Shown here one piece after another: positions 1,087 through 20,773 of a DNA stretch of 20,773 nt. Position 1 is the stretch's first letter. Every line of letters begins with the position of its first letter. The translations under genes and the position numbers were made by a program. This DNA comes from a virus, in IMG/VR virus record IMGVR_UViG_3300049825_000409, positions 1 through 20,773 of that record; one strand, given 5' to 3'. Below the pieces are notes generated by a model. It did no database searches, was not told where the DNA came from, and saw only the letters and a program-made list of their open reading frames with translations.

Positions 1087-2376
1087 CTAGTGGTAGCCTC
1101 CTACAGTGATGAACGAGGCGTCCTCGCCGACGACCGGCATGCCGTCGAGCGTCGCGCCGACGCGGATGCGGTCCTCAAGCCCTATGACTATGCGCACGTC
1201 GAACGTGAGTGACGCGAACAGTTGCTTGATCGTCTCGTCCGTGATCTGCAGCAGGTCGGTCAGCGCTCGGGTCTTCAGGAACGCCGTCACCGTGCCGTCG
1301 ATCAGGGTCAGCGAGTCGGTGGCGGCGATCACGCGGAGCAGCGTGCGGATCGTCTGGTCTGAGACGACGAGGTTGTCCGACGTCACGCGCCCGCGCGCGA
1401 CGCCCTTGACGCTGGCGTCCACGATCTGCGCCACGAGGTCGTCGAACCGTCGGTTGCGCACCGCGCCCGACACGCGCTCGTCAACGATCGTCAGCGACTC
1501 GTCCAACGAGCGGCGGCGCAGCATGTAGGTCGTCGTGCCGTCGCCGATAGTTAGAGTGTCCGAGGCGGTGCGGACGTAGATCGCCCCTGCACCCGTGATC
1601 TGAGAGAGCATGCCGTCGATGACCGTGATCGCATCGCCAAGGGCGCGCGTCAGCAGGCGCGAGAACACGTAGCCGTCGGAGACCGTGAGACTGTCGGAAG
1701 CCACCTTGTAGAGCTGACGGAAGAACGGGTCCGAGACGCTGACGGTGTCCACCTGCGTGCGCCCGCGCGTGACTCCAGAGACAAAGCCGTCGACCAGGAG
1801 CGTGTTGTCCGACGTGACGCGCCCGCGCACCACGCCGTCGAAGAGCTGGTCCGACACGAGCGTCGTGTCCGAGCCCTGCCGCTGGCGCAGGAGCCAGTCG
1901 AACAACTGGTCTAGGACGGTCAGGTTATCGACCATGTCCTTCGTGTAGACGGTTCCAGTGCCGCCCGGGATGAATATGCTAACGAGCTGATCGAACGCCG
2001 TAAGCAGGTCGCTGGTCACCCTGCCACGCACGATGCCGGAGATACGCTCGTCGATTACGGCGGCGCTGTCGGCGCGCAGCTTCAGCGCGATCTTGTTGGC
2101 TGAGTCGCTCACCGCCAGCGCGTCCGTCAGCAGCCGCGTGTCGCGCAGCCAGCGTGTGAGCTGGTCGAACGTGGTCAGCAGCTCCTGCACGTCCACCGTC
2201 CAGTAGAGCATGCGCCCCGTGTCCGTCATCGTGAGCGAATCCTGCCGGAGCTTCAGCGCGATCTTGTTGGCCGAGTCGCCGAGCACGAGTGAGTCGCTGT
2301 TGGTCTTGAGCACGATCGCCGCCGTGCCCTCATTCAGGCCAAAGCCCCCGTTGATGTCGTCTGCGTTGAACCGCAT
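1087..2376 (-). CDS. Repeat-rich fibre-like virion protein
   Basis: 429 residues from ATG 2374-2376, two bases after the upstream stop; an upstream TTG (2397) was not used because it lies inside the previous gene. Residues 26-392 are about 18 imperfect copies of a unit near 20 residues. The unit begins Asp-x-Leu-Thr-Val-x-Asp, then about seven variable residues, then often Leu-x-Arg-x-Arg (for example DSLTLIDGTVTAFLKTRALT and DNTLLVDGFVSGVTRGRTQV). The regular spacing of hydrophobic beta strands and Asp turns suggests an elongated, possibly trimeric or solenoid shaft. The last 37 residues (DVRIVIGLEDRIRVG onward) differ and look like a C-terminal cap. No enzyme motif is visible. Flanking fibre-like genes suggest a virion appendage. 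It lies between capsid and connector genes, so a head-attached fibre is as possible as a tail fibre. Confidence 0.65.
   Translation of the reverse strand: MRFNADDINGGFGLNEGTAAIVLKTNSDSLVLGDSANKIALKLRQDSLTMTDTGRMLYWTVDVQELLTTFDQLTRWLRDTRLLTDALAVSDSANKIALKLRADSAAVIDERISGIVRGRVTSDLLTAFDQLVSIFIPGGTGTVYTKDMVDNLTVLDQLFDWLLRQRQGSDTTLVSDQLFDGVVRGRVTSDNTLLVDGFVSGVTRGRTQVDTVSVSDPFFRQLYKVASDSLTVSDGYVFSRLLTRALGDAITVIDGMLSQITGAGAIYVRTASDTLTIGDGTTTYMLRRRSLDESLTIVDERVSGAVRNRRFDDLVAQIVDASVKGVARGRVTSDNLVVSDQTIRTLLRVIAATDSLTLIDGTVTAFLKTRALTDLLQITDETIKQLFASLTFDVRIVIGLEDRIRVGATLDGMPVVGEDASFITVGGYH
1201..2301 (-). repeat. About 18 tandem ~60-bp coding repeats
   Basis: This region encodes the ~20-residue Asp-x-Leu-Thr-Val-x-Asp repeats. 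Most units have diverged at DNA level, but some stretches remain nearly identical. One 23-base match is at 2078-2100 and 2249-2271. A second, 25-base match with one mismatch is at 1372-1396 and 1804-1828. This points to expansion by unequal recombination with some recent exchange. Unit limits are approximate because spacing varies from 18 to 27 residues. Confidence 0.7.
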
Positions 2377-2378
2377 GG

Positions 2379-3368
2379 TCAGGTGTCCACGATCCAACCA
2401 CCGTAGTCAATGCTCACGATGGAGTCAGTGAGTGTCGAGGCATAGAGCGCCGGGGCCAGCATCGCCGAGTTCGGCGGGATGTCAGTGGTGAAGAAGCTCG
2501 CAGCGTCGGCGATTGACGATATGTCCAGACGTCGCACGCGATAGTCGACCCTAGCTGCGGCGGGCGCTGCGCTCAACTCGAACATGTACCACGCCCCCGA
2601 CTGCACCGCGAAGAAACTGCCGAGCGACAGCTGCACGGCGGCGCCCGCGCCGTCGTTGCGCCAGATGCTCATCTCACGGCCGAACCCGCCCGACGTCGCC
2701 TGACCAACAGCGATGCCAGAGATTAGCGAGGATGGCGGGTGTACTGAATTCATGGCGCCCGTTGTGTTGACCAGCCCGACGAAGAAGTTGCCAGAGTTCG
2801 GCATAAATTCGAATCCGAACATTGTCAAGAACCGGAAACCTGCCTGCATAGTCGCCTGAAAGTTTGGCGAGAACAGCTTCACCGGAGCGTTCCCGGACAG
2901 CGCGCTCGTGAAGCGCGTGCGGTTCGCCATGGTGCGGGCCGATGAGTTCGAGAGCGTCACGGCCGCCTGCGTCGCGCCGGCAAATGTCGGCAGCGCCGTG
3001 CCCATCAGCTGGAACGACGTCGTGTTAAACGACGGGAGCACGTGCTGCCTGAACATCTTGTTATACTGCGCGAACTGCAGTGAGTCCGCCGTCAGTCTCA
3101 GCTCTACACGCGTGCCGGTGGCGAAGTTCGTCTGCGCCGTCGTGTTCTCCTGCCCCCGCAGAACGGTGAGCGTATCAGTCGAGATCGCGACAACCTTGCA
3201 CACCTCGACGTTCGTGCCGTCGTCCATCGTAACCATGTAGAAGTCCGGGGCGAGCGGCGTCGGGAACCGTGCGCCGTGCCCTGTCTGCAGCACGAGCGAC
3301 GCCGTGGCCGCCGACGAGATGGCCGTCGAGAGGGTGGACTTCGCGTTGTTCTTGAACAGCTGGAACAC
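2379..3368 (-). CDS. Fibre-like virion protein with conserved phage fibre N-terminal domain
   Basis: 329 residues from GTG 3366-3368, one base after the upstream stop. Residues 1-105 form a recognisable domain found at the start of many phage fibre or baseplate-wedge proteins. It runs MFQLFKNNAKSTLSTAISSA, a beta segment ending YMVTMDDGTNVEVCKVV, the signature LTVLRGQENTTA, then GTRVELRLTADSL. This domain usually anchors a fibre to the virion. The remaining 220 residues are beta-rich, with FGFEFMPNSGNFFVGLVNTTG and a C-terminal SIVSIDYGGWIVDT, and resemble a jelly-roll-like receptor- or glycan-binding head, though no specific family is certain. It is translationally coupled to the neighbouring fibre-like genes. 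It could decorate the head instead of the tail. Confidence 0.65.
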   Translation of the reverse strand: MFQLFKNNAKSTLSTAISSAATASLVLQTGHGARFPTPLAPDFYMVTMDDGTNVEVCKVVAISTDTLTVLRGQENTTAQTNFATGTRVELRLTADSLQFAQYNKMFRQHVLPSFNTTSFQLMGTALPTFAGATQAAVTLSNSSARTMANRTRFTSALSGNAPVKLFSPNFQATMQAGFRFLTMFGFEFMPNSGNFFVGLVNTTGAMNSVHPPSSLISGIAVGQATSGGFGREMSIWRNDGAGAAVQLSLGSFFAVQSGAWYMFELSAAPAAARVDYRVRRLDISSIADAASFFTTDIPPNSAMLAPALYASTLTDSIVSIDYGGWIVDT

Positions 3369-3369
3369 G

Positions 3370-6175: not shown

Positions 6176-6739
6176 TTATCCCGTGTGCTGAATGTCGTGC
6201 GACCCTACCCGGATGCGCACGGTGAGGTTGAGCATGTCGGAAGCCTGAAGCGTGACGCCGAGGCCGTTCACGTGGTTACCGACGATGCCCGTGGTCGCGT
6301 GCGAGTTGGCGAAGTCGTGGATGGCCGCCGAGTCGAGCGCAACGCCCGTCAACGAGTCCGCTGCGCCGCCGAAGGTCGCAGTCAGCGCGATCCACTCCCG
6401 CGACTGGATGCCCGTGATGGCCGAGCTGGCGGGGTTCGCGATCGACGCGCGGCGTATCACCTCGCCGAGCGACGACTGCACCGAGTTGAGCGACCCCGCC
6501 TGCGTCGCCGTCCCGACGATGATGTAGTTGAACGGCGTCGTGCCCGTCGCCTGGATGGCGCGGTTCGCGATGCGGTTCAACCCACGGTCGGTGACGACGT
6601 TGCGGAGTACCTTCGACTCGATCGTCCCGTCAGCCCTGTGCACCTCGGCGATCCACTCCCCGTAGGGGAAGCTGAGGATCGTGTCATTGACTTTGTCGGG
6701 CCGGTGGTGCAACGGCGCGTCAGGCATACGGTGATTCAT
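6176..6739 (-). CDS. Putative virion (tail or fibre-associated) protein, 187 aa
   Basis: It starts at ATG 6737-6739, inside the last 20 bases of the glycosyltransferase fusion gene; AGGAGA lies about 12 bases upstream. The product has a short variable N-terminus, then beta-rich segments: GEWIAEVHRADGTIESKVLRN, VVTDRGLNRIANRAIQATG, NYIIVGTATQAGSLNSVQSS and a C-terminal LNLTVRIRVGS. The 'TDRGLNRIANRAI ... IVGTA' pattern recurs in phage structural proteins near fibre genes. I know no enzyme motif in it. Its place directly after the glycosyltransferase gene makes it a candidate target for glycosylation; many Ser/Thr residues fit, but that is inference. A second in-frame ATG at 6727 is possible but has a poorer context. 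Confidence 0.55.
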   Translation of the reverse strand: MNHRMPDAPLHHRPDKVNDTILSFPYGEWIAEVHRADGTIESKVLRNVVTDRGLNRIANRAIQATGTTPFNYIIVGTATQAGSLNSVQSSLGEVIRRASIANPASSAITGIQSREWIALTATFGGAADSLTGVALDSAAIHDFANSHATTGIVGNHVNGLGVTLQASDMLNLTVRIRVGSHDIQHTG

Positions 6740-9700
6740 AAAATTTGGTCGTCTCCTCTTGAAGTTTCCGGATCACGTGAAAGTAGAACTCCCGGCTGTG
6801 CCAGCGACCTTTGATCTCCAGGTCCTGCCCTAGCGCCGGAGCGTCGGGCTTCTGCGTCCGCATCTTGATCTCCGCGTCGAACCCGCCGTAGGCCATCTCG
6901 ACGCACAGCGAGTAGTACTGGCAGCCCTCGATGATCATGCGCGGCACGTTCCAGTCCACAATCTCCTCGTAGAGCTTGATGCCCTGCAACGCCTGCTCGC
7001 GCTGTCCGGGCACCAGCATGAAACCCGAGCGCTCCAGCTGGAACATCGCGCCCTGCGCGAGGTCCCTCAGGTACAGGAACTTGTTGAGCCTGCGCGTCGG
7101 GTTCTCCTGCAGGTCCTTTACGATCAGCGGGTAGTTGCGCGTGAAGCGCTTGCGTCGCGTAGGCTCGTCGACGTACCCAGCGTGGAGCAACTGCGCGTCG
7201 CCTCGCACCAGCGCGTGCTCGATACCGACGCCCATCTTGGTCTCTGGGTGCTCGTGCACGTAGCCGAAGAACTCGGCCTCGATGTCGCCGCGGAACAGTC
7301 GCGTCGGCATGTCGATGGTGAGCACCTGAGCGGGGAACGCTGAGTAGTGCACTTGAGGCATGCCCACGCCGTTGATGCCGCTGTTGCGCAGATGCTTCCA
7401 CAGCCCGAACGCGGGGCGCAGTTCCTCGTCGGCGTCGCACCAGAAACGCCAATCGCCGCAGGCGGGCTCCATCGAGCGGTTGCGTGCGGCCGCGAAGCCG
7501 CCCGTATCGACGTCGAGCGCCTTGAGCCCCTTGACCGCGCGGATCGGCCGGTACCAGAACTCCTCCTGCAACCGCTCTATCACCTCGGAAGTGCGGTCTG
7601 TCGTCGTTGGGTCGATGGCGATGATCAACTCGTCGACCGCGCGCACGAACGTCGAGACGCAGCGACGCAGCGTGTCCTCTCCGTCCTTCACGATCATACA
7701 GGCCGACACAGTCTGCCTCGGCGCCGTGTACTTGAACTTGCGGGCGTAGTCGATCTTGCCGATCTTCACCGGCTTGCCAATGGAGACGAGCTGATCATTG
7801 ACGACATCTGGCACGCGCTCTGGCTTCCAGAATGTGATCCAGGAGCCAAGCTGCCCGCCCGACGCGTCCTGCCCGGCGGGGGCGTAGCAGAGCTGAGCCT
7901 CCTTGCCGAACAAGTCACGCAGGTCAAAGTACTCGAAGTGGTGCACGTGCTCGCGCCCGCCCCAGTACGACTCGCCCTCGATGCCGTTCCACTCCCAGCG
8001 CCCGCACGGCGTGGTGAGCAGAAACGAGCCGTCGACGGCGAGCTTCGTGGCCAATTTCTGGAGCAGGTTCTTGTAGTCCCAGACGTGCTCGACGATCTCG
8101 GCGGCGATGATGAGATCGAACTCACCCACCAGTTCCGAGATGTCGGCCTGCGTGCCGATGGCGAAGTTCGCATTCTCCAGCTTCTCGCGCGTGCGCCAAC
8201 GCTCGGCCGCGTTGATCGCCTGCGGCGAGATATCCATACCGACGAACTCGACGTTCTGGAACATCGACGCGAGCGGAATGGTGTAGTGACCATGCGCGCA
8301 GCCGAAGTCGAGCACGCGCATGCGACGCGGGATGAACTGACCCGGGTCTTCCAGCTCTTCAAAATCAACTACCGGCGGACTTGCGTCAGCGGCAGCCAGC
8401 GCGTCCTGATAGACCTCGATCTTCTTCTCATGCTCCTGCTGCCGTTTGTCCTCACTGACCTGAAACAGCTGCACCGCCTCGTCCACGAACTGGTGGGCAC
8501 CGCGGAAGCGCGACGTGCCGGTGCAGTCCTCGCCCTGCGTCGCGAGCGCCGGGTTCGAGTCGTAGTACTTCTTCTGGTGAAACGCGTAGTGCTCGGCGTA
8601 GGCGGCTGGGTCCTCGATGAAACCGTAGAGCTTGGCGCGTTCCTGCTGCGCGGCGTGCGCGATATCGTCGTCACCCCAGACCTCCCCCTTGCTGTTCTTG
8701 TGGTCTTTTCTGTACTCATCGAACGCGCTCACGTCGCTGTGGTCGAGCAGGTGCCGCAGCATGTTCGCCGTCGTCTTGCGCCGGGCGAACAGGTCGTCGA
8801 CCACCGACTCGAACTCGTCAGCTGCGTTGGCCCAGCCGCGCGTCTTCGCCGACTCCAGCTGCCGCGCCGACTTCTTCGCCCACCACTCATCGGTCGGCGA
8901 CGACTTGGTGCGCTTCTCGACCCAGCGCACGAACGCCTTCTCGTCGGCCTTGCCGCCCGCGAGCGGTAGCAGCGTCACGCCGGAGCCCTCGCAGGTCTCG
9001 CTGAGCGCGCCGACGTCGGACGCCAGCATCGGCAGGCCAGCGTGCATCGCCTCCATCGCCGTGATGCACGACACCTCCTCGAACTCCGATGGGTAGATCA
9101 ACAGGTCGAGCGACATCTGCAACTGCGCGAGCGCGGCCTTGTCCAGCGCCCCGAGCAACGTCACGTTCGGCAGCGCGCGGGCCTGCTCGTACAGCGACTC
9201 GTAGAACGCGCGCATCTGGTCGACCGTGTTGTCGTAGCCGCAGACGAAGAGCCGCGCGTTCGGCGCCGACTTCGCGAGCTGCGCCATGATGCCGCCGGGC
9301 CGCACGAGGTGCTCCAGGCCGCGCTCGGGTCGCGACTGGTAGAGCATGTTGAACTCGGTCGCCGCGATCACGATCCCGGGCTTCCCCTCCTTGTCGACGT
9401 AGAACCCGGCCTTCTCGCCCTTCGCCACGAGGTCGGTGCGGTTGGCGTACAGCGCTGGGTCCACGCCGTTGCGCACCACGCGCACCGAATCCGGGTTGAA
9501 CCCATGCACGCCGAGAAACTGCTTCTTGTGCCACTCCGAGACGCAGGTGAAGGCCCCGACCTGCCACGACCCCTCAGCCAGCATCGGACCGTTGCGGTGG
9601 AGGGCGAGGTCGTGCATCTGGTGGACGCAGACCTTCGACGCCCAGCGCTTGTGGAACCCCATCGGGTGGCGCTGCACGAGCAGCACGTCGTGAGGGGTCG

Positions 9701-9944
9701 AGGTCGCGTAGAACTCGAACTTCTCGCCCATCGGGTGCTGCTGCGAGGCCGGCCCCGCCCAACAGTACTGAACACCGTCGAACGCGCCCTCCTTCTGCTC
9801 GTTCGTGAACACCGAGACGCGGTGCCCGCGCCGCGCCATCTCGAGCGCGAGGTAGTAGGCGGCCGACTCCGAGCCGCCGAGCGAGCGCTTCTTGATCGTG
9901 TCGCCGTTGAACGGCATGCCCATCGAGTGTATGACGAGTTCCAT
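6720..9944 (-). CDS. Three-enzyme fusion: GT4 glycosyltransferase - SAM methyltransferase - GT2 glycosyltransferase
   Basis: 1074 residues from ATG 9942-9944, one base after the upstream stop. The longer open frame to 10304 was rejected because it overlaps the previous gene. Residues 1-385 are a GT-B, GT4-like transferase: GGSESAAYYLALEMARRGH near the start and EEVSCITAMEAMHAGLPML (E-x7-E type) near 287-308. Residues ~400-535 are helical and unassigned. Residues ~540-700 are a class I methyltransferase: VLDFGCAHGHYT (SAM-binding), FVGMDIS, then FDLIIAAEIVEHVWDY. Residues ~744-900 are a GT-A, GT2-like transferase: VSACMIVKDGEDTLRRC, GGFAAARNRSM, and a DxD-type WCDADEEL. The C-terminal ~170 residues are helical (perhaps TPR-like). 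It probably builds and methylates a short glycan on an unknown acceptor. All three active-site motif sets look intact. No signal peptide or membrane span is seen, so it is probably cytoplasmic. Confidence 0.9.
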   Translation of the reverse strand: MELVIHSMGMPFNGDTIKKRSLGGSESAAYYLALEMARRGHRVSVFTNEQKEGAFDGVQYCWAGPASQQHPMGEKFEFYATSTPHDVLLVQRHPMGFHKRWASKVCVHQMHDLALHRNGPMLAEGSWQVGAFTCVSEWHKKQFLGVHGFNPDSVRVVRNGVDPALYANRTDLVAKGEKAGFYVDKEGKPGIVIAATEFNMLYQSRPERGLEHLVRPGGIMAQLAKSAPNARLFVCGYDNTVDQMRAFYESLYEQARALPNVTLLGALDKAALAQLQMSLDLLIYPSEFEEVSCITAMEAMHAGLPMLASDVGALSETCEGSGVTLLPLAGGKADEKAFVRWVEKRTKSSPTDEWWAKKSARQLESAKTRGWANAADEFESVVDDLFARRKTTANMLRHLLDHSDVSAFDEYRKDHKNSKGEVWGDDDIAHAAQQERAKLYGFIEDPAAYAEHYAFHQKKYYDSNPALATQGEDCTGTSRFRGAHQFVDEAVQLFQVSEDKRQQEHEKKIEVYQDALAAADASPPVVDFEELEDPGQFIPRRMRVLDFGCAHGHYTIPLASMFQNVEFVGMDISPQAINAAERWRTREKLENANFAIGTQADISELVGEFDLIIAAEIVEHVWDYKNLLQKLATKLAVDGSFLLTTPCGRWEWNGIEGESYWGGREHVHHFEYFDLRDLFGKEAQLCYAPAGQDASGGQLGSWITFWKPERVPDVVNDQLVSIGKPVKIGKIDYARKFKYTAPRQTVSACMIVKDGEDTLRRCVSTFVRAVDELIIAIDPTTTDRTSEVIERLQEEFWYRPIRAVKGLKALDVDTGGFAAARNRSMEPACGDWRFWCDADEELRPAFGLWKHLRNSGINGVGMPQVHYSAFPAQVLTIDMPTRLFRGDIEAEFFGYVHEHPETKMGVGIEHALVRGDAQLLHAGYVDEPTRRKRFTRNYPLIVKDLQENPTRRLNKFLYLRDLAQGAMFQLERSGFMLVPGQREQALQGIKLYEEIVDWNVPRMIIEGCQYYSLCVEMAYGGFDAEIKMRTQKPDAPALGQDLEIKGRWHSREFYFHVIRKLQEETTKFYESPYA

Positions 9945-9945
9945 G

Positions 9946-10374
9946 TCAGTACCCCCTCTCGAGCATGCGGCGCAGCTCAGGGTCGCGGTAAGCGCCAAGC
10001 AAGCTACCAACTTCGGCCTCAGCATGCTTGTGGAGTTGCGCCCCCAGAAAGTACTGCGCAATAGCGATCGCACGCGCAATGTCCACGGTCCCGGCCATGT
10101 GCGGATATATGCATCCATTCGGGTACGCGACGAAAACCGCCAAGCCATTCGGAACCAGCCCGAGGTTGTTGCCGTTGCTGAAGAGGTTAGGAAGCTCCTC
10201 GTTGACGAACTTGCGCAGCGCCTTGGCTGAGGCCACGTGCTGCGCGAGGGGGTCGACGGGCTGCGCCGCCCGCTTGTCCTGTTCACGGTAGTTGAGTTCG
10301 GCATTCGCCTTGCTCAGCTCCCCCTCGAGTTCCTGGACGCGCTTCTGCAGAGTCTGTTTTGTATCACTGCTCAC
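9946..10374 (-). CDS. Coiled-coil phage protein of unknown function (142 aa)
   Basis: It starts at GTG 10372-10374 with a strong AGGAGG (10380-10385) 5 bases upstream. Residues 1-33 (SDTKQTLQKRVQELEGELSK onward) form a charged coiled coil. The remainder includes HVASAKALRKFVNEELPNLF, a Gly/Asn-rich turn SNGNNLGLVPNG, and a helical IARAIAIAQYFLGAQLHKHA. I do not recognise the family. Its place between capsid and glycosyltransferase genes suggests a virion assembly or minor structural role. The hydrophobic stretches are too short or too polar for membrane spans. Confidence 0.6.
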   Translation of the reverse strand: MSSDTKQTLQKRVQELEGELSKANAELNYREQDKRAAQPVDPLAQHVASAKALRKFVNEELPNLFSNGNNLGLVPNGLAVFVAYPNGCIYPHMAGTVDIARAIAIAQYFLGAQLHKHAEAEVGSLLGAYRDPELRRMLERGY

Positions 10375-11036: not shown

Positions 11037-11996
11037 TTACTGGCTGGAGTTCACCGCCACGATCAGGAACCCGTACTCGGGCGCCGTGACCTTCTCGTCC
11101 TGGTAGTACCCGACCTCGGCCTTCTCGGACTTGGTCTCGCTGTTGCGCGGGTGGATCTCACCCTGCATGTTGGCGAGCCCCGGCCGCTGCCAGCGGAACG
11201 AGTACGCGAAGGACGGGTCCTCGATCGTCGGCGAGGGCGGTGCGTAGTACACCAGCACGTTGTGTGCCCAGACTGGCGTCACCGCCTCGGCCTGCGCCTC
11301 GTTGGCGTTCGAGAAGAACGACTCACCGACCAGGATCTGGTCGACCTCGAACAGCGCCGCCACCTGCTGACGGCTCACGTAGCCGCCGCCGTTGTTGACG
11401 CCGTAGATGAGGTTGCGCACGTTCGCCGTACGGCGGAACGAGTCCCACGCCCGCGCCCCGAACACGATCCTGTTCGGCCTGTACCCCGTGCGGTAGAGCA
11501 CGTTGTCGATGGCCGCGTTGACCGAGTTGAGGGGCGTGTCCGCGGTGCCCGCGCCGTTCCAGGCCGAGCTGACCGTCGCCGAGGACCCGACGTTCGCCGT
11601 CGAGTTCACGGTGAGCGAGATGCGCTGGTCCCAGTCCAGCATCAGCTTGCCGGTGAGGTACTGCGTGCGGCCTGTGACCAGCTGCATGTAGTACGACTCG
11701 TCCATGTTCGCGAGGTCCTCGTCCGTGATCGCTGTCGACAGGGCGTAGTTCTTCGCGTAGTAGGAACCGCTCGAGACCGAGCGGGTGATCTGGCGCGCGT
11801 ACGTGCCCGGCGCGCGGCTCGTCTCCTCGACGTTGAGAGCCTCCTGCCTCGACCAGATGTTGTAGAGATCCGACTGCTTGGCGACAGTGACGATCGGGAA
11901 GATTTGATCGGCAATGGCGCCGCGCGGGCGGTACCCGATGGCCATCTGCGTGATGACCTTGTTGATGTGGAGATCTTGACCGACTGAAGTACCCAT
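11037..11996 (-). CDS. Major capsid protein
   Basis: 319 residues from ATG 11994-11996, with GGGAGG 11 bases upstream. The N-terminus (INKVITQMAIGYRPRGAIAD then QIFPIVTVAKQSDLYNIW) and the later NRIVFGARAWDSFRRTANVR, VSRQQVAALFEVDQILVGES and WAHNVLVYYAPP are typical of one large group of HK97-fold capsid proteins often labelled 'major capsid protein' or 'DUF5309/Mu gpT-like'. The length fits. It follows protease/scaffold and decoration genes, the standard order. It forms the shell that holds the genome. No long N-terminal delta domain is visible, consistent with a separate scaffold. The stem-loop after the gene suggests its message is handled specially, fitting a protein needed in hundreds of copies. 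Confidence 0.9.
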   Translation of the reverse strand: MGTSVGQDLHINKVITQMAIGYRPRGAIADQIFPIVTVAKQSDLYNIWSRQEALNVEETSRAPGTYARQITRSVSSGSYYAKNYALSTAITDEDLANMDESYYMQLVTGRTQYLTGKLMLDWDQRISLTVNSTANVGSSATVSSAWNGAGTADTPLNSVNAAIDNVLYRTGYRPNRIVFGARAWDSFRRTANVRNLIYGVNNGGGYVSRQQVAALFEVDQILVGESFFSNANEAQAEAVTPVWAHNVLVYYAPPSPTIEDPSFAYSFRWQRPGLANMQGEIHPRNSETKSEKAEVGYYQDEKVTAPEYGFLIVAVNSSQ

Positions 11997-12014: not shown

Positions 12015-12380
12015 TTAGAATGACAATGTGCCCTGAGGCGCAAAGCTGAACATGCCCGCGAAGAGGTCGCCAGAGTTGGCCGCCTCCAGCGCCCTGCCGC
12101 ACCCGGTGTGGCCCGAGGTCGCGGAGATCATGTACCCGGACGTGGTCGTCATGACCCTCGCCCCGATCGCGATCGACGCACCCGCCCACGCCTTCATGTA
12201 GCCGGAGATGCCCATGGAGACGCCGGCACCGATGGGGCCGCGCGACTTCAGGAGGCCTGCCGCCAGCACGTCTGTCGACGCGATGGTCCCGTTGACGTTG
12301 ATCGCCCGGTGGAGTGGAATGGCCGACAAGTCGACCGTGGTCTCGACCGGGACTGCTACGTATTCGCCTTCTGTTGCCAT
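12015..12380 (-). CDS. Head decoration / capsid cement protein (DUF2190-like)
   Basis: 121 residues from ATG 12378-12380, three bases after the protease stop. The sequence is Gly/Ala-rich and beta-predicted. It has an N-terminal EGEYVAVPVETTVDLSA, a middle run of Gly-rich strands (GVSMGISGYMKAWAGAS) and a C-terminal CGRALEAANSGDLFAGMFSF. The last motif (G-R-A-L-E-A-A) is characteristic of DUF2190-type proteins, which bind the outside of phage capsids and stabilise them. Position between protease/scaffold and major capsid protein is the usual one for decoration genes. It is therefore expected on the capsid surface. Confidence 0.75.
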   Translation of the reverse strand: MATEGEYVAVPVETTVDLSAIPLHRAINVNGTIASTDVLAAGLLKSRGPIGAGVSMGISGYMKAWAGASIAIGARVMTTTSGYMISATSGHTGCGRALEAANSGDLFAGMFSFAPQGTLSF

Positions 12381-12383
12381 GGC

Positions 12384-12932
12384 TCAGCGGCCTCCCGGGA
12401 TCGAATCCATCCACGCTCGGACCGAGGCTCGGTTGGCGCGCGCGAACTTCGCTGCGTCCTCCGGACCCCAGACCTTGCCCTTGTCCTCGAACTCCTTCTG
12501 CTGCTCCGCGATGGCCTCAGCGAGCTCGTCGCCCGGCGTCGACTCCGCCTGACGCTCCTCCTGTGACCCGCCGCGAGTGAACGCCGCCCGACTCGCCGCG
12601 CCGCGCTTCCCGGCCATCGCCGAGATCGCCTCGTCGACGTCCGCGCTCGTCACGCCCAGCACTGCGGCGTCGTCGCCGAAGCGCAGAAGCTTCTCGCCCG
12701 TGTCGCGCTGAGCCGACGTGATCCGGCCCTCCTTCACGGCGCGGTCGAACTGCGCCTTGCGCTCGTCGCGGTGCTTGTTGATCGTCGCGCGCTTCTCGGC
12801 GGCCGCTGCGGCCTCCTGCGAGCGCTTGAACTCGGCCTTCTCGGCGTCGAGAGCCTTGCGCTCGGCTTCGATCTTGACCTCCGCGACCGTCAGATCGCGC
12901 AATTTGTCGTTATCCGTCTTTTCCTCTGCCAT
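12384..12932 (-). CDS. Nested scaffold protein from an internal start (182 aa)
   Basis: ATG 12930-12932 lies in frame inside the protease gene at Met169, with AGGAGA (12943-12948) 10 bases upstream. The product starts MAEEKTDNDKLRDLTVAEVK and is almost entirely coiled coil, ending with DSIPGGR. The arrangement is like Mu gpI/gpZ and lambda C/Nu3, where the scaffold is made in excess of the protease from the same frame. The scaffold would organise capsid subunits and then be degraded. Use of this start is inferred from the ribosome-binding site and the family precedent. Confidence 0.6.
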   Translation of the reverse strand: MAEEKTDNDKLRDLTVAEVKIEAERKALDAEKAEFKRSQEAAAAAEKRATINKHRDERKAQFDRAVKEGRITSAQRDTGEKLLRFGDDAAVLGVTSADVDEAISAMAGKRGAASRAAFTRGGSQEERQAESTPGDELAEAIAEQQKEFEDKGKVWGPEDAAKFARANRASVRAWMDSIPGGR

Positions 12933-13436
12933 GACTTTCTTGTCTCCTGTCGGTGATTCCCGCCGGCTGAAGACCACGCGCTGCGCGAAGGTGATGCCTT
13001 CCAAGCGCCGCGCCATGGTCAACGACTGTAGGTCTTTCAGGTTGCTGACGGCGGGTATGTCAGCTCCCAGTAGCGCCACTGCGTCAAGAACCGCGGCGAA
13101 TGACTCGCCGCCGACCTTGCTGTCCAGCAACACCTCGGAAGAAACGAACTTGTAGAGCCCCTTTCGGATCGCCTCGTAGACGATCGTTGGGATGTCGGTG
13201 AAGTCGGCGAGCAGCCTCTGCCCGTCGCGCCACACGCGCTGCACCCAGCCGAGCGCGGGGTGCCCATCGGTCACGGACTGCTCGGCGTTGTGCCCGAGCT
13301 TGAGCGGCACGCGCCCGGCCTGATTGAGCGCGGCGAAGGCGCGCACCATGTCGTCGAGCGTCGACTCGTCGAACGTGACGACCTGCGACCCCTCCCAGGT
13401 GCCGACCGCGAGGATCTCTGCGTTCTTGAGGTCCAT
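12384..13436 (-). CDS. Mu gpI-like head maturation protease with C-terminal scaffold
   Basis: 350 residues from ATG 13434-13436, whose A is shared with the upstream stop; a GTG one codon earlier is also possible. Residues 1-165 form the protease: LKLGHNAEQS with candidate catalytic His49, then GHPALGWVQRVW, and VSSEVLL with a Ser99-Ser100-Glu101 motif as likely nucleophile region. This matches the Mu gpI-like family that cleaves scaffold during head maturation. Residues ~169-350 are a charged coiled coil rich in Glu, Lys and Ala (EAERKALDAEKAEFKRSQEA), as in scaffold proteins. Protease and scaffold are encoded in one frame, and the scaffold probably is also made alone from an internal start at 12932. 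The product acts inside the prohead and is removed before DNA packaging. Confidence 0.85.
   Translation of the reverse strand: MDLKNAEILAVGTWEGSQVVTFDESTLDDMVRAFAALNQAGRVPLKLGHNAEQSVTDGHPALGWVQRVWRDGQRLLADFTDIPTIVYEAIRKGLYKFVSSEVLLDSKVGGESFAAVLDAVALLGADIPAVSNLKDLQSLTMARRLEGITFAQRVVFSRRESPTGDKKVMAEEKTDNDKLRDLTVAEVKIEAERKALDAEKAEFKRSQEAAAAAEKRATINKHRDERKAQFDRAVKEGRITSAQRDTGEKLLRFGDDAAVLGVTSADVDEAISAMAGKRGAASRAAFTRGGSQEERQAESTPGDELAEAIAEQQKEFEDKGKVWGPEDAAKFARANRASVRAWMDSIPGGR
12943..12948 (-). promoter_or_regulatory. Internal ribosome-binding site for scaffold
   Basis: AGGAGA within the protease coding sequence, 10 bases before an in-frame ATG at the junction between protease and coiled-coil parts. 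It falls where a separate scaffold product should begin. Confidence 0.55.
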
Positions 13437-13881: not shown

Positions 13882-14138
13882 CCGGCGTAGTCCCGCGTCG
13901 CCAGCTGCTCGCTCGCCGTGAGCTCGACCACGCGCGGCGTGCCGTTGATCGACCAGAGCAGCGCGTCCTCGTCCCGCAGGCAGAGCACCGTCGCGAGCGC
14001 GAGCGCGTGCTCCGAGACGACGGAGGCCGGCGCCCGCTCCATCTCCTGTAGCATCTTCAGCGCGTGCCGCGATATGTCCTCCTGAGGCCACGCGCGCAGC
14101 CGCGCCTGGATCGCTTCGAGCACTGTCTTATCAGTCAT
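13878..14138 (-). CDS. Small helical protein (86 aa), unknown
   Basis: ATG 14136-14138 overlaps the preceding stop as ATGA. The product starts MTDKTVLEAIQARLRAWPQE and is mostly helical, with HALKMLQEMERAPAS and HALALATVLCLRDEDALLW, then a short strand region NGTPRVVELTAS. There is no membrane span or catalytic motif. It lies in a chain of four small coupled genes between the radical SAM enzyme and the protease. A longer frame upstream was discarded because it runs through the neighbouring gene. Confidence 0.55.
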   Translation of the reverse strand: MTDKTVLEAIQARLRAWPQEDISRHALKMLQEMERAPASVVSEHALALATVLCLRDEDALLWSINGTPRVVELTASEQLATRDYAG

Positions 14139-14296
14139 GACTGCACACTCGCTCCTACGAACACGAAGCCCGGCCGCGTCTGCACCCATATCAGCACGCG
14201 CCCTGCGATCAGCAGCACGCCGTTGTCGCCGAAGTCGATGATGGTGTGGCCCCACTCGTCCACCCGCTTGGAGACAGCTTTGAGCTTGATTCTCAC
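14135..14296 (-). CDS. Tiny beta-rich protein (53 aa), unknown
   Basis: GTG 14294-14296 overlaps the radical SAM stop as GTGA and its stop overlaps the next ATG. The product, VRIKLKAVSKRVDEWGHTII and onward, is short, beta-predicted and ends FVFVGASVQS. It is the first gene after the radical SAM enzyme and could be its substrate or partner, since such peptides are often encoded beside these enzymes. I see no leader-peptide signature or conserved Cys, so this remains open. Confidence 0.5.
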   Translation of the reverse strand: MRIKLKAVSKRVDEWGHTIIDFGDNGVLLIAGRVLIWVQTRPGFVFVGASVQS

Positions 14297-15075
14297 GCCG
14301 CCACCACCTTGATTCGGCGCAGTTCGCGGTCGCGCAGCGCGTGCTCCTTCAGCGTTCCCGCCTCGGGGCGCGGCACGTCGGCGAGCGGGAAGCCCACGGC
14401 TTGATCGCAGCCGTGGCACAGCTCGTAGGGCGAGACGTACAGCTCCTCCAGCGGCTGGTCGACGTGCCCCACCACGCCGACGCCCGAGGCGTCGAAGCTG
14501 CACGTGGTCAGGCGGCCGTCGGCCATCGCCATCACCCAGCCGCTCTTCACCCAGTCGCACTCGCGGCGCCCGAACCTGTTCTGCGCCGTCACGCGCCACG
14601 CGACCTGCCCAGCCCAGTCCGTCGAGGAGAGCACCGCGTCGTTCGAGTAGCCGGCGAGCAGCCCGCAGTCCATGAAGAGGTCGTACGCGACCTTCGCACG
14701 CTCGGGGCGGTGGAGCGAGACGAACACGCGCGGGCGCAGGGGGAGCAGCGCGCGCACCATCGCCTCGTCCACCGCCACGCCGTTGGTCGCGAACACTAGG
14801 TCGAAGCCCTCGCCCAACGCCTCGCGCGCCATCGCCACGTACTCCACGAACCGGGGGTGGATCGTCGACTCCCCGATGCCGGCGAGGTTCAGCGAGCGCT
14901 GCCCGTGCTCGTCCCGGCACTCCAGCGCGAGGTCCAGGGCGCGCGCGAAGTGCTCCGGCGTCATGTCCACCTTCGGCCGCGCGAGGTACGGCGACGCGCA
15001 GTAGGAGCAGCGCAGGTTGCACCTCGAGGTGATCTCGATCTGGTGCACGGCGCGGACAGGCTCGCGGTGGATCAC
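14293..15075 (-). CDS. Radical SAM enzyme with SPASM/twitch-like C-terminus
   Basis: 260 residues from GTG 15073-15075, one base after the upstream stop. Residues ~17-24 hold the radical SAM motif C-x3-C-x2-C (CNLRCSYC) that binds the [4Fe-4S] cluster, near the N-terminus as usual. GIGESTIHPRF follows, matching the 'GGEP' position of the family, then the SAM barrel strands (FDLVFATNGVAV, PRVFVSLHRP). Near the C-terminus a Cys (TTCSFDASG) and a CHGC pair form a reduced SPASM/twitch arrangement that may bind an auxiliary cluster. Relatives modify peptides, proteins or sugars by radical chemistry. Its substrate is unknown. It sits inside a head operon, between a Cys-rich phage protein and tiny genes. 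The core is shorter than a full SPASM enzyme, so a single auxiliary cluster is more likely than two. Confidence 0.85.
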   Translation of the reverse strand: MIHREPVRAVHQIEITSRCNLRCSYCASPYLARPKVDMTPEHFARALDLALECRDEHGQRSLNLAGIGESTIHPRFVEYVAMAREALGEGFDLVFATNGVAVDEAMVRALLPLRPRVFVSLHRPERAKVAYDLFMDCGLLAGYSNDAVLSSTDWAGQVAWRVTAQNRFGRRECDWVKSGWVMAMADGRLTTCSFDASGVGVVGHVDQPLEELYVSPYELCHGCDQAVGFPLADVPRPEAGTLKEHALRDRELRRIKVVAA

Positions 15076-15076
15076 G

Positions 15077-15322
15077 TCAGAAACTCCCCTTGCGGACTCG
15101 CGTCAGCAGATCATCCTGCACCTCGGTCGTCGTGCCCGGCCAGTGCGTCAGCTTCGCCGACTCGATGCTGTTGCCGTTGCGCTTCAGCTCGTCGACGAGC
15201 GCCCGCGCCGCGCAGTCCGGGCAACCCCGGTGGCCACATCCGTACACGGTCTGCCCGTCCTTCAGCTCACGCTGGCACCCGTGCCCGCCCACCGCCACGA
15301 TCTCGATTCTGTACTGTCCCAT
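15077..15322 (-). CDS. Conserved small Cys-rich phage protein
   Basis: 81 residues from ATG 15320-15322, with AGGAGA (15328-15333) 5 bases upstream. It begins MGQYRIEIVAVGGHGCQREL and has a compact cluster, CGHRGCPDCAARALVDELK, then LTHWPG and a basic C-terminus VRKGSF. The set of four Cys and two His suggests a zinc-binding or metal-binding fold. Very similar proteins (MGQYRIEI-x-AVGGHGCQR ... GCPDC ... LTHWPG) are common in diverse phages and carry no known function. It lies directly upstream of the radical SAM gene, one base apart, and may be co-translated with it. Confidence 0.7.
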   Translation of the reverse strand: MGQYRIEIVAVGGHGCQRELKDGQTVYGCGHRGCPDCAARALVDELKRNGNSIESAKLTHWPGTTTEVQDDLLTRVRKGSF

Positions 15323-15947: not shown

Positions 15948-16210
15948 GCAAACCCCCATCGCGCACGCTGCGCGGTCAGTATCTCTCTCAGCTGCCTTCC
16001 CAGGTCGGCGCGTATGACGCCGTCGTCCCGGACGTACTTCTCGACCGTGACCGTGTCGCGCTTGCCGGCGACGAAGTTGATCGCGCTCTGCACCTCGAAC
16101 TGGTGGTCGCGGCACACCGAGGCGAAGCTCGGCTTGCGCGTGACGTGCGCCCTGCGCAGCATCGCAGCCACCTCAGGCGTCGGAACGACGTGCTCGTAGA
16201 CCCTCTTCAC
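15944..16210 (-). CDS. Small basic protein after the portal-MuF gene (88 aa)
   Basis: GTG 16208-16210 overlaps the portal stop as GTGA, which fixes this start over the longer open frame that runs into the portal gene. The product begins VKRVYEHVVPTPEVAAMLRR and is rich in Arg and Lys (RAHVTRKPSFASVCRDHQF, KRDTVTVEKYVRDDGVIRAD). The last third is helical (LGRQLREILTAQRARWGF). It could bind nucleic acid or be a small assembly factor. I recognise no family. Confidence 0.6.
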   Translation of the reverse strand: MKRVYEHVVPTPEVAAMLRRAHVTRKPSFASVCRDHQFEVQSAINFVAGKRDTVTVEKYVRDDGVIRADLGRQLREILTAQRARWGFA

Positions 16211-18921
16211 TGCGCGCCACCCCCGAACCCGTCCTGTGGCTGCACGCCGGGGTCCGGCGACTCCTGTCCGTCCCAGCCGTCGACGGCCGTGATGGGGACG
16301 AGCAGCGAACGGCAGTTGTAGTGGTTCGGCGGCCGGTACGTGTCCCACATCTCGGAGTCCGTCGCCCACGTCGCGTCGCTCAGCGCCGAGCAGATCTCAG
16401 TGGTGCGGTCGTCGAGGATCGCGCTATAGCGCAGCGCCACGACGAAGTCGCCGAGCGCCGGGTCGGTGAACTCCTGGTAGCGCGCCTCGTTCATCGCCTC
16501 GAACGTGTTGGTGCGCACGAGCGTGTTGAGGTACGCCGCCGCGCCCTCGACCGTGTCGACCCAGAGCGCGTCGAGCACGGCGTTGACGGCCGCGTCCGTC
16601 TCGACGGCCTGCACCGCGCCGCGCGTGAGGATGCCCTTCGACACGAGCCGGTCCCAGATGTTGGCGCGCGTCTGCTTCGGGCTCATGCCGTTCTTCACGG
16701 CGCTCAGCAGCTCCTGCTGGATGATCGCCTTCGTGGCGTCGCTCGCGTTGCCAGCCATGCGGAAGCCGTTGGCCGAGAGGAACTCGGCGGCGCGGTCGCG
16801 CAGCGCCTCCAGCTGCGCCCGACTGGTGAAGTGCCCGCCGCGCGCTCGCTCCAGCTCGTTCTTGGCCATCGAGGAGCCGACGTCCCAGGAAGTGCGAAGG
16901 GCGTCCACGAACACCGAGCGCAGCTTGCCGATGGTGGGTCCGTCCAGCGCGACGTCTGCGATCTGGGCCACGTTGGCGTCCGTGTACTCCGAGACGTCGG
17001 TCGCGCCGGTCGCCTTCTTCACGCCGCGCGCGATCACGTCCGCGGCCGACGGCACCGTGCGCTGAAGGATGGACTCCTCGCGGGCCGCGATGACGGCGAA
17101 GTTCACGCGCTGCACGGCGCGGGAGAAGGAGGCGCGCTTTGACAACCCCGCCTTACGACGACCAACCTCTTTAGCGCTCTTCCAAAGCATGTGGCTGATA
17201 CCACTAATGTCAGACTCCAGCCTAGGACCGACGTTGGCTGATCCTGAATTCCAGATGCCGTCACCTGGCTTGGAGCCTACGTTCCAAACGTCGTCGCCAG
17301 CCTGTTGCAAAACATTAGCTATTTCCTTTGGGCTCAACTCGCCCCCGCTTAGCCGATCATGCAACCCGGTGAGAATACCAGCCACCTTTGAGGCAGCTTC
17401 TGTTGGTACTTTAGAAACATCGCCCGCGGTACGCTCCGCAAAGGCATGCATGGAATCAATGTGTCCCGCTATCTCAGTCAACACGCCACTATCTGTGCCT
17501 GACTCGCCAAATCGTCCGCGCTCATCCCGCGGATGCTTCGACTCATCGAACTCGAACGTGGCGCGCGAGTACGTCGCAGCGGCCTTCGCCTTGTCCTGCG
17601 GGGACTGGGGCTTCTGACCCTGCCCGAACGGGTTGCCCTTCGCCGCCACCTCGATCGCCTTGGCGTGAGCCTCGTCCTGCGCGGCCTGGATCTCCTCGGG
17701 CGTCTTGGCCGGCATCTCGAGTATCTGCCGCAGCCGCTCCTCGTCTTCTGGCGTGGTCGTCACGGCCTTCTTGCCGACGAGGTCGCTCCACGCGGTCACG
17801 ATCCACTTCACGTGCTCCAGGCTCGCGGGCTTGAAGCAGAACTCGGGCACCCGCCCGTCCGGGAACAGCGCCTCGCCCGCGTCCTTCAACACCTGCTCGG
17901 TCATGACGGACGAGAGCCGCCGCGACGTCGCGTTCAGCGTCCAGAAGAACGCCTCCAGCTGCGTCTGGCTCTGCGCGTAGGCGCCGGTTTGCCCCGCGAC
18001 GCTGACGCCGAGCAGGTTCGGCACGAGCATCGACTTGGCGATGGCGAGGTCGTGGAACTGGATGGCCTTCTCGAAGCCGTCGCCCGAGGGCGGCTGGATC
18101 ATCTCGAGGTCGATGCCCACCGGGAGCAGGATGGAGCCCACCGTCTTGATCTGCGAGAGCGCCGTCTGCAGCTTGTCCCACGCGGGGGTGTTCGGCTGCA
18201 CCTGCGCCTCGGCCGTGCGCGTCGCCTTCACGAACCCGCCCGCCGCGCGCTCGCCCCATATGAGCCAGTACTTGATCAGCAGGTCCTTCGCGTAGTACGA
18301 GCGGTAGGCGGCGCGCAGCTCGCTGGTCCCGTACCACTCGTCCTCCTCCGGGGCGTGGACGTAGTGCACGAACTTGCCGAGGTCGAGCGACTGCTCCTTG
18401 CCCGAGACCTTCTGCTTGAAGTCGATCAGCTGGCCGTAGTCGTCGGTGTAGAACCAGAACGTGGAGCAGTCCTTGGGGAGCAGCGCCACGATGCCCGACT
18501 GCGGGCGGCCCTCGAACTCGAAGAGCCCGTAGGCTTTCTCCGTGATCGAGTAGCCGTAGGTGAGCCCGGACAGAATCGCGTTCAGCTTGTCGACGAGCGC
18601 GCCCTTCATAGAGTTGAGCATGCGCGTCAGCATCGCCGCGCGCTTCTGCTTCTCAGCGTCGCTCAGCTTCGAGTCCGTCGGCCAGTCGAGCACCCAGTCG
18701 CGGCTCGTCACCGCGTCGCGCTTGAACGTGACCGCCGCCTTCACCTGCTCGTCGATCATCATCTTCTGGTAGATGCGCAGCCCGTGCCGCTGCACCAGCG
18801 AGTCGGGGTTGTAGCGCGGGAAGTCGGCCGAGGAGAACAGCGCCGTGTTCTCCCACGCGACGACCGCGTCGTCCGCGCGGTTGGCGGGGAACGCCTGGAC
18901 CTTGAGCTTGCCGTTTGCCAA
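16207..18921 (-). CDS. Portal protein (DUF935-like) fused to MuF head-morphogenesis protein
   Basis: 904 residues from TTG 18919-18921, two codons after the upstream TAG in the same frame; GGGGAGG lies about 11 bases upstream. Residues 1-455 are the portal: RHGLRIYQKMMIDEQVKAAV, AVTSRDWVLDW and DLAIAKSMLVPNLLGVSVAG are typical of the DUF935/Mu gp29 group, which forms the ring for DNA entry. Residues ~453-470 hold a linker motif, DESKHPRDERGRFGESG, of a kind seen at domain borders in phage head proteins. Residues ~469-594 are an insert of lower GC. Residues ~595-904 are MuF: LVRTNTFEAMNEARYQEF, LDDRTTEICSALSDATW, and YRPPNHYNCRSLLVPI. In Mu these are two genes, gp29 and gpF. The C-terminus is Gly/Gln-rich. 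Confidence 0.9.
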   Translation of the reverse strand: MANGKLKVQAFPANRADDAVVAWENTALFSSADFPRYNPDSLVQRHGLRIYQKMMIDEQVKAAVTFKRDAVTSRDWVLDWPTDSKLSDAEKQKRAAMLTRMLNSMKGALVDKLNAILSGLTYGYSITEKAYGLFEFEGRPQSGIVALLPKDCSTFWFYTDDYGQLIDFKQKVSGKEQSLDLGKFVHYVHAPEEDEWYGTSELRAAYRSYYAKDLLIKYWLIWGERAAGGFVKATRTAEAQVQPNTPAWDKLQTALSQIKTVGSILLPVGIDLEMIQPPSGDGFEKAIQFHDLAIAKSMLVPNLLGVSVAGQTGAYAQSQTQLEAFFWTLNATSRRLSSVMTEQVLKDAGEALFPDGRVPEFCFKPASLEHVKWIVTAWSDLVGKKAVTTTPEDEERLRQILEMPAKTPEEIQAAQDEAHAKAIEVAAKGNPFGQGQKPQSPQDKAKAAATYSRATFEFDESKHPRDERGRFGESGTDSGVLTEIAGHIDSMHAFAERTAGDVSKVPTEAASKVAGILTGLHDRLSGGELSPKEIANVLQQAGDDVWNVGSKPGDGIWNSGSANVGPRLESDISGISHMLWKSAKEVGRRKAGLSKRASFSRAVQRVNFAVIAAREESILQRTVPSAADVIARGVKKATGATDVSEYTDANVAQIADVALDGPTIGKLRSVFVDALRTSWDVGSSMAKNELERARGGHFTSRAQLEALRDRAAEFLSANGFRMAGNASDATKAIIQQELLSAVKNGMSPKQTRANIWDRLVSKGILTRGAVQAVETDAAVNAVLDALWVDTVEGAAAYLNTLVRTNTFEAMNEARYQEFTDPALGDFVVALRYSAILDDRTTEICSALSDATWATDSEMWDTYRPPNHYNCRSLLVPITAVDGWDGQESPDPGVQPQDGFGGGAQ
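17140..17515 (-). other. Low-GC insert within the portal-MuF gene
   Basis: By counting, 17161-17220 and 17281-17340 each have 29 G+C in 60 bases, against 46 in 60 for 16561-16620. The insert lies between portal and MuF parts, keeps the frame, and encodes about 125 residues (IDSMHAFAERTAGDVSKVPT, LSPKEIANVLQQAGDDVWNV) of mostly helical and Gly/Trp-containing sequence. Base use suggests separate ancestry from the flanks. Confidence 0.6.
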
Positions 18922-18924
18922 CGT

Positions 18925-19221
18925 CTACCCAGCCTCCCCAGTTGAAAGTCCGTGACCGCGGACGCCGGGCGCCGTCGCATCCGGTGCCGGTGCATTGTGC
19001 GAGTGGGCCGGGGTACTGTCGCCCCCGACGCCCGCAGTCACGGGGCTGATCGCCGCCCTGAGCAACGCAATCTGCGCTTTGCTCAAGACAATCGTGGTGC
19101 TCTCGTCGTACTCGTACCGCTGGCAACAGCCGGGGCACTTGCCCGCGCCATAGGGACGAAGGTAAAACTTGGTGTCACAGATCTCACAGTCGAACTCATC
19201 ACCTTTTCGCTTAGTCACCAC
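18925..19221 (-). CDS. Zinc-ribbon protein between terminase and portal genes
   Basis: 98 residues from GTG 19219-19221, overlapping the terminase stop by 7 bases. Residues ~9-40 are a zinc ribbon: FDCEICDTKFYLRPYGAGKC with a following CPGC, so two Cys-x2-Cys pairs. The rest is a Thr/Leu helix (SKAQIALLRAAISPVTAGV) and a flexible, Ala/Pro/His-rich tail. Its stop (TAG) is in the same frame as the portal gene and only one codon ahead of the portal TTG, so the two may once have been, or be read through as, one protein. Small zinc-binding proteins near terminase genes can act in packaging, but its role is unknown. Confidence 0.65.
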   Translation of the reverse strand: MVTKRKGDEFDCEICDTKFYLRPYGAGKCPGCCQRYEYDESTTIVLSKAQIALLRAAISPVTAGVGGDSTPAHSHNAPAPDATAPGVRGHGLSTGEAG

Positions 19222-20773
19222 GCCTTCTCCAGGTCAGCGCCCACGCCGCCGATCGTCATGATCTCGTCCGCCCGCCCGCCCTGCACCTGCGCGCCGGTGA
19301 TCAGAGCCGGGGCCATGGACGACCACTGCATGGAGAGCGAGTCGGCCATGTCCGGGCTGAAGCCGAGGCGCAGCACCAGCTCGTCCTTCGTCTCGAGGTC
19401 CTCCACCCGGTCGCCGTTGTCCTTGGTGCGGATGGCGCACAGCTGCGCCTCGAGGTCGTCCCAGTCGGCCTCGTCCTCCAGGAACTTGTCGTCGAACTCC
19501 AGCAGCCCGTCGCGCAGCACGTTGCGCAGGGACATGTACGACTGCACGCGCTGGTTGCGCCACCTGGCAGGGACCGCGCTCTTCGCCCCGCCCTGGTGGA
19601 ACACCACGGGGTACTCGCGCTTCAGCAGCTCGCCCGCCGCGCCGAGGCCGACGCCGATCGCGTCCACGACGAACGTGTCGCCGTTCGCCGCACTGCACCC
19701 CATGTCCTTCCACATCATCACCGCCGCGTCGGCCGTCTGCTGCGTGGCGCGCTCCAGCTCAAAGCTGAATCGGCGCATGCGCCGCGCGACGACCTTCGAC
19801 TGGTGATGGTCGCAGAGCGTGACGATGGTCTCGGCGCTGCCGCCGCCCGCGCAGTCGACGCTGACCTTCCGGCGGGGGATCGAGCCGTCGGCGAGCCCGT
19901 CCTTGTTGCGCGCGTTGTTGACCCACTGCAGCGCCAGGAGCTGCCCCGGCTCGTCCGACGCGAACTCCCCGAACACGCGCACCTTCACGACGGGGGAGTT
20001 GCGCCCGTACTTGTCGATGAGGCGCTGCGCCCACCTGCGCGACACGCGCCGCGACTGCTCGAAGCCGATCTTGTAGGTGAAGTAGTTCCTGGACTCCTTC
20101 GCCTTGAGGTGCGAGTCGGCGAACGTGCCCGTGCGCTGCGTGGGGTTGGAGATCATCACGAGGATCTGCACCACGCCGGTCGAGAGCGCGCCGAAGATCA
20201 CGGGGAACAGCGCCTCGGGGACGCCGGTGGCCTCCTCCACGATCACAAGCTGGTAGGTCTCGTGGTGGCCCGCGAGGTTCTCCGGGGTCTTGGCCGTCTC
20301 CCCCAGGATGCAGTAGTTGCGGTCGCGGCTGCCGTCCTCGTTGAACCAGTAGCAGGTGGTGTCGCCCATCTCGTGCGTCGCCCGGTACCAAGGCTCCGCG
20401 CGCTGATCGATCTTGTGGATAGCCGCGAAGAGGCGCGTCTTGACCTGGTCGAACTTCGGGGCGGTGACGATGACGCGCCCCGGAAAACACGCTTGGAACA
20501 CGTGCGCGATGAGCGCGGCGGTGTGCGTCTTGCCAGGGCCGTGGCCCGAGCAGACGCTGATCTGCGTCTTGCGCTCGTGGTTGATGCGGGTCTTCGCGCG
20601 CCACACGTCGGCGACCGCGTCGACTAGGTCCACCTGCAGCTGGTCGAGCTCCCAGGAGCGGCCGGGGTCCTGCTCGAGCGTCGGCTCGCCCTTGAGCGCC
20701 CGGTGCCGCAGCGCCTGCCGGCAGACCACCTCGACCGGGTCCTCGCGGCGCGCGAGGATCCAGCGCTCGAGGA
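19215..20773 (-). CDS. Terminase large subunit (5' end outside window)
   Basis: The frame is open to the right edge, so the N-terminus is missing; a GTG at 20729 is only an internal codon. It has a Walker A (SGHGPGKTHTA), a Walker B with the catalytic acid (LVIVEEATGV), and a coupling motif (ISNPTQRTGTF), the ATPase part. The nuclease half has three acidic sites: VSVDCAGGG, FVVDAIGVGLG and SPDMADSL. This is the standard large terminase that packages DNA into proheads and cuts concatemers. The order fits other phage packaging modules. The small terminase gene should lie further to the right. About 518 residues are visible, near full length for this family. Confidence 0.9.
   Translation of the reverse strand, partial: LERWILARREDPVEVVCRQALRHRALKGEPTLEQDPGRSWELDQLQVDLVDAVADVWRAKTRINHERKTQISVCSGHGPGKTHTAALIAHVFQACFPGRVIVTAPKFDQVKTRLFAAIHKIDQRAEPWYRATHEMGDTTCYWFNEDGSRDRNYCILGETAKTPENLAGHHETYQLVIVEEATGVPEALFPVIFGALSTGVVQILVMISNPTQRTGTFADSHLKAKESRNYFTYKIGFEQSRRVSRRWAQRLIDKYGRNSPVVKVRVFGEFASDEPGQLLALQWVNNARNKDGLADGSIPRRKVSVDCAGGGSAETIVTLCDHHQSKVVARRMRRFSFELERATQQTADAAVMMWKDMGCSAANGDTFVVDAIGVGLGAAGELLKREYPVVFHQGGAKSAVPARWRNQRVQSYMSLRNVLRDGLLEFDDKFLEDEADWDDLEAQLCAIRTKDNGDRVEDLETKDELVLRLGFSPDMADSLSMQWSSMAPALITGAQVQGGRADEIMTIGGVGADLEKAW

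Follow-up and report, generated by a model that had tools for sequence, protein, structure and literature searches.

The window analysed here (the whole stretch of 20,773 bases, an IMG/VR virus record with its genes on the minus strand) encodes a member of a new radical SAM family. By fold the family is of the BtrN type, and it is an optional component of an operon which also encodes a protein-glycosylation fusion. We give a probability of about 45% to the reading that this BtrN-type twitch radical SAM oxidoreductase is an optional tailoring enzyme in a phage protein-glycosylation module. The radical SAM core, the twitch cysteines, BtrN as the nearest fold, the position in the operon, the co-residence with the fusion and the protein-glycosyltransferase character of its GT2 part were read from sequence or from models. 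We infer a sugar substrate, a virion glycan and, as the probable reaction, two-electron oxidation or epimerisation of the sugar. No paper on the combination of a radical SAM enzyme with a phage glycosylation fusion was found among open-access papers.

Organisation of the head operon

The minus-strand gene order in the window is terminase, Mu portal-MuF, small ORFs, a Cys-rich protein, the radical SAM gene, a 53-aa ORF, three small ORFs, protease, cement-like protein, major head protein, small ORFs, the glycosyltransferase fusion, a 187-aa protein and tail-side genes, one of which is Mu gp36-like. The features are as follows.

19215..20729, minus strand: terminase large subunit (TerL); phrog_2, E 2.4e-26
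16207..18921, minus strand: Mu-type portal fused to a MuF minor head protein; PF06074, E 1.4e-36, and PF04233
15077..15322, minus strand: neighbouring Cys-rich (zinc-finger-like) protein of 81 aa; motif CGHRGCPDC
14293..15075, minus strand: BtrN-like twitch radical SAM enzyme, 260 aa, GTG start; PF04055, E 5.9e-13; BtrN profile, E 2e-12; structural model
14998..15021, minus strand: core motif CNLRCSYC, residues 19-26, predicted site of the SAM-cleaving [4Fe-4S] cluster; from sequence, three Cys invariant in 55/55 members
14407..14559, minus strand: twitch domain cysteines C173, C192, C220 and C223 (CX13GX4C-27-CX2C); spacing found in 55/55 members
14135..14296, minus strand: 53-aa ORF overlapping the radical SAM stop codon (GTGA); no homologue at other radical SAM loci
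12384..13436, minus strand: head maturation protease; phrog_976, E 2.6e-28
12015..12380, minus strand: cement/decoration-like protein; PF09956, E 3.8e-4 (below the Pfam cut-off), and synteny
11037..11996, minus strand: major head protein (MCP); phrog_1005, E 2.2e-60
6720..9992, minus strand: GT4-methyltransferase-GT2 (SunS/GmaR-like, TPR) fusion; Pfam, GmaR and SunS profiles; true start at 9992 or about 9944
6176..6739, minus strand: conserved 187-aa protein (family c7) directly after the fusion; synteny at many loci
1087..2397, minus strand: Ser/Asp-rich protein with repeats of about 30 aa (REP), candidate glycosylation target; repeats and synteny

Conservation across relatives is strong for the order TerL, portal-MuF, protease, cement, MCP, fusion, c7, REP, c9 and tail genes. 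The initial annotation had placed the radical SAM gene in a head operon, and the surrounding TerL, portal-MuF, protease, cement-like and MCP genes confirm this. The REP repeats (SDsLtvsDg...) are about 30 aa long, and in other phages, too, REP follows the fusion, whether the radical SAM gene is present or absent. Two further small genes lie on the minus strand of this region. A 146-aa protein within the head operon (15501-15941) weakly resembles a TAT signal at its N-terminus (a PF10518 match below cut-off), and a 98-aa protein between terminase and portal (18925-19221) has zinc-ribbon-like cysteines and chance-level family matches only.

A virus family of twitch radical SAM enzymes

Membership of the radical SAM superfamily, defined by a CxxxCxxC cluster-binding motif in a partial TIM barrel, is supported for the window protein by the CNLRCSYC motif, a score of 49.8 bits against PF04055 (cut-off 29.5) and the structural model. 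An exact-peptide search returned one relative, and an alignment of three sequences then found relatives on at least 41 uncultured virus contigs. Six-frame extraction from 41 contigs and the window gave 66 members, 55 of which were aligned. They split into the clade of the window and other clades. A second copy (a paralogue, often in tandem with the first) is present at 36 loci, a number that includes some overlapping stretches of a single contig; in roughly half of the 36, the profile matches of the pair share 4-32 bases.

Every one of the 55 aligned members has all seven Fe-S cysteines; together with the number of members, this goes far beyond chance. The invariant positions are E14, C19, C23, Y25, C26, G66, G68, E69, N98, G99, H122, W154, C173, G187, C192, D195, C220 and C223. 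The CNLRCSYC core and the C-terminal cysteine cluster described earlier are thus real features of the protein, at residues 19-26 and at Cys 173, 192, 220 and 223. The BtrN-type twitch motif (CX9-15GX4C and CX2C, four cysteines and no further SPASM cysteines; PMC6231123) is present in the family: CX13GX4C spacing occurs in 55/55 members, the gap to CX2C is 27-29 residues, and later cysteines are absent in 53/55 and conserved in none. This pattern fits the first four cysteines of the SPASM motif as defined in PMC6231123. The rest are absent, and with only four conserved C-terminal cysteines the family lacks the seven-cysteine SPASM motif of enzymes with two auxiliary clusters.

The family has no match at E 1e-5 among 50,697 named phage records, and so lies outside the named phages searched. 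Matches in NCBIfam fall far below every curated cut-off, which places the protein in no named equivalog there. A search for cellular homologues gave a single match, a contig of a Zixibacteria MAG whose length equals that of viral contig L039, so that it offers no cellular gene neighbourhood for comparison.

Similarity to BtrN

BtrN is the best solved match to the family by sequence and by structure. A profile of the 55 members aligns with BtrN over positions 10-210 of 238 (E 2e-12), and H122, D195 and the first two cysteines of the twitch domain are paired in this alignment; the remaining profile matches at E<=1e-8 reach the core only. The model of the window protein (mean pLDDT 91, pTM 0.87) retrieves BtrN first in Foldseek (E 4.8e-9; next family 8.1e-7). 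VIA likewise aligns 213 residues with the 246-residue BtrN chain at 3.2 A (Z 17.3; next family 15.5), so that, together with the profile, the similarity to BtrN covers the whole-chain fold. The twitch-type half of the earlier SPASM/twitch assignment is accordingly supported by profile, cysteine pattern and fold.

BtrN (PDB 4M7T) is the 2-deoxy-scyllo-inosamine dehydrogenase of the butirosin pathway and acts on an aminocyclitol. It carries out a two-electron oxidation in which the four-Cys auxiliary cluster is the likely electron acceptor (PMC9012708). The phage enzyme has the same small radical SAM core and four-Cys twitch domain. It differs in its low identity to BtrN (about 16-20%), in its location in a head operon of a phage and in its frequent occurrence as two tandem paralogues. 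The twitch radical SAM dehydrogenase SpeY (PDB 7WZV, a dehydrogenase by its entry title) is less similar than BtrN, with Z 11.8 and a sequence match to the core only. As a caution against a functional assignment, PMC6231123 warns that relatedness in sequence is a poor guide to function in this radical SAM subfamily.

A glycosyltransferase fusion in the same operon

The initial annotation overlooked the partner of the radical SAM enzyme, which is the GT4-methyltransferase-GT2 fusion. The C-terminal third of the fusion, its GT2-TPR part, matches the GmaR profile at E 4.5e-27 and the SunS profile at 4e-20. In VIA its model is closest to SunS (Z 23.0, 274 aligned) and ThuS (21.6), followed by a next match at 17.1. 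The S-glycosyltransferases SunS and ThuS and Listeria GmaR consist of a GT-A domain and a helical TPR-like part; the phage GT2 part has both, in this order, together with the sequence match. Its difference from these enzymes is that the counterpart in phages is one third of a larger fusion. By sequence and predicted fold, this third is a protein glycosyltransferase. The matches of the fusion on plasmids in tblastn include the glycosyltransferase of pA1_ASM1, a glycocin plasmid.

GmaR adds N-acetylglucosamine to flagellin (PMC9638930). This role, the likeness of the GT2 part to GmaR and SunS and the plasmid matches make protein glycosylation by the fusion likely. According to excerpted text of PMC11256854 (citing Freeman 2023), the major capsid proteins of the mycobacteriophages Che8 and Rita are glycosylated and the phages encode glycosyltransferases; no radical SAM enzyme is described there in that text. 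Since capsid glycans are known in mycobacteriophages, a virion protein is, by analogy, a plausible target of the fusion. The fusion genes of two records have in-frame stops: two TAA in G031 (32896-35934) and one TAG in G036 (2338-5259), which may reflect a broken gene, recoding or an error of sequencing.

Position of the radical SAM gene in relatives

In nearly all relatives, the gene-neighbourhood comparison proposed in the initial annotation finds the homologue inside the head operon, and its strand is always that of the head genes. It usually occupies one of three slots: the interval from portal to protease, that from MCP to fusion, or a site after the fusion and c7. The gene adjoins the fusion or its follower c7 at 29 loci. 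It lies in the portal-protease slot at 22 loci, sometimes directly abutting both genes, and at one locus (L034) it is just upstream of the portal. At two loci (L013 and L040) it is found among replication-type genes; both records carry the fusion and the family portal, which is distant in L013.

The portal-protease slot could also mean that the enzyme acts on a virion protein itself and alters a side chain independently of glycosylation, for instance by anSME-like oxidation, epimerisation or cross-linking. We regard this as unlikely, though it is the likeliest of the alternatives. The next structural neighbours after BtrN are peptide-acting enzymes, namely ChlB (Z 15.5), anSME (Z 15.2) and SuiB; the first two lie about 2 Z units under BtrN. 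The anSME and RiPP SPASM/twitch enzymes (ChlB, SuiB, SkfB, CteB) share the superfamily and a similar fold (Z 13-15.5), but the phage enzyme is without their further SPASM cysteines. Neither is a RiPP recognition domain found: the PqqD profile PF05402 matches 0/19 records, a search of moderate sensitivity given that the control was positive in 3/14 genomes. No conserved small precursor adjoins the gene, and an RRE-guided RiPP maturase was rejected on these two grounds. Nor does any residue of portal, protease, cement or MCP mark the phages that have the enzyme (best enrichment about 0.5, in groups uncorrected for relatedness), and in L013 and L040 the gene is away from the head genes altogether.

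Co-occurrence with the fusion and gene trees

Records collected by the radical SAM gene alone, without reference to the fusion, number 36. The fusion is present in 27 of these, including all 14 of at least 20 kb (L013 and L040 among them); the nine without it are all shorter than 20 kb. As every long record has the fusion, the substrate is no less likely to be a glycan than a protein side chain. In reverse, a search with the fusion gave 40 records, 12 of which have the radical SAM gene. The general PF04055 profile has no match in 20 of 21 fusion records, among which L044 holds a damaged copy of the family. A different radical SAM protein (PF04055) is encoded at 25334-25567 of G055, a fusion phage without the BtrN-like family.

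The link could be lineage background, because a search with the portal alone gave three long records and all of them have the fusion. The fusion seems to be common to this head lineage in general; among these three portal-only records there was no fusion-less phage of the lineage for comparison. On the tree of the fusion, the presence of the radical SAM gene requires at least 12 gains or losses (rows with known state). Its tree agreement (Spearman) is 0.58 with portal, 0.52 with protease, 0.46 with fusion and 0.43 with MCP, well below the 0.76-0.85 of the operon genes among themselves. These low and about equal values indicate that it behaves as an accessory gene, and the mirror-tree comparison finds it co-evolving no more closely with the fusion than with the head genes.

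The gains and losses, the three different slots and the lower agreement with all operon genes would suit a freely moving accessory gene in a tolerated slot, with its substrate elsewhere and its link to glycosylation due to lineage background. We find this improbable: the gene never departs from the strand of the operon, it often overlaps or touches the genes beside it, and the fusion accompanies it in all 14 long records.

The two loci among replication-type genes raise the possibility of auxiliary metabolism or of nucleotide or DNA modification (QueE-like, viperin-like or DNA hypermodification) unrelated to the virion. The gene is beside a DnaE-like polymerase in L013 and a primase/helicase-like gene in L040, viperin-like structures reach Z of about 13.6 with the model, and record G031 has a thymidylate synthase. 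Such a role is quite improbable, as almost every copy belongs to the late head operon. The protein shows no clear match to any nucleotide-modifying subgroup. QueE and queuosine (7-deazaguanine) were rejected on QueC in 0/19 records and a QueE-like PHROG match of E 0.015 to the core only; DNA hypermodification was rejected on the thymidylate-synthase family in 1/19 records.

Small neighbours of the radical SAM gene

The initial annotation paired the enzyme with the Cys-rich protein as a conserved partner and suggested the 53-aa protein as a possible substrate. The ORF coordinates bear out the arrangement: the 81-aa ORF is one base upstream of the radical SAM gene, and the 53-aa ORF begins in a GTGA overlap with its stop codon. 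Neither the pairing nor the substrate is supported, because both proteins are private to the window among radical SAM loci. At three loci (L018, L038 and L045) the gene abuts portal and protease and leaves no space for a small peptide. The one relative of the Cys-rich protein (69% identical, L003 795-1058) is on a stretch of an unrelated phage contig, and this stretch is without the radical SAM family; a 15-aa match on L004 was taken as chance. Despite the immediate adjacency, a role for either neighbour as substrate or partner is largely refuted by this missing conservation and is very improbable.

Proposed role and significance

If the radical SAM enzyme is a tailoring enzyme of the glycosylation module, the GT2-TPR part of the fusion would attach the first sugar to a virion protein; the GT4 part would then extend it, and the methyltransferase part would cap the glycan. 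The radical SAM enzyme, single or as a tandem pair of paralogues, would cleave SAM and remove a hydrogen from a carbon of the sugar or of its nucleotide-sugar precursor. The second electron would pass to the fully cysteine-ligated auxiliary [4Fe-4S] cluster, and the product would be a keto or epimerised sugar. That a virus-restricted BtrN-type family, often a tandem pair, oxidises or epimerises the glycan which the SunS/GmaR-like fusion attaches to head or fibre proteins is a serious possibility, which we advance tentatively.

If this is true, phages would alter the sugar chemistry on their own particles by radical enzymes. Virion glycosylation, already known in mycobacteriophages, would thereby gain a further level, and small twitch radical SAM enzymes could be studied together with a defined glycosyltransferase partner.
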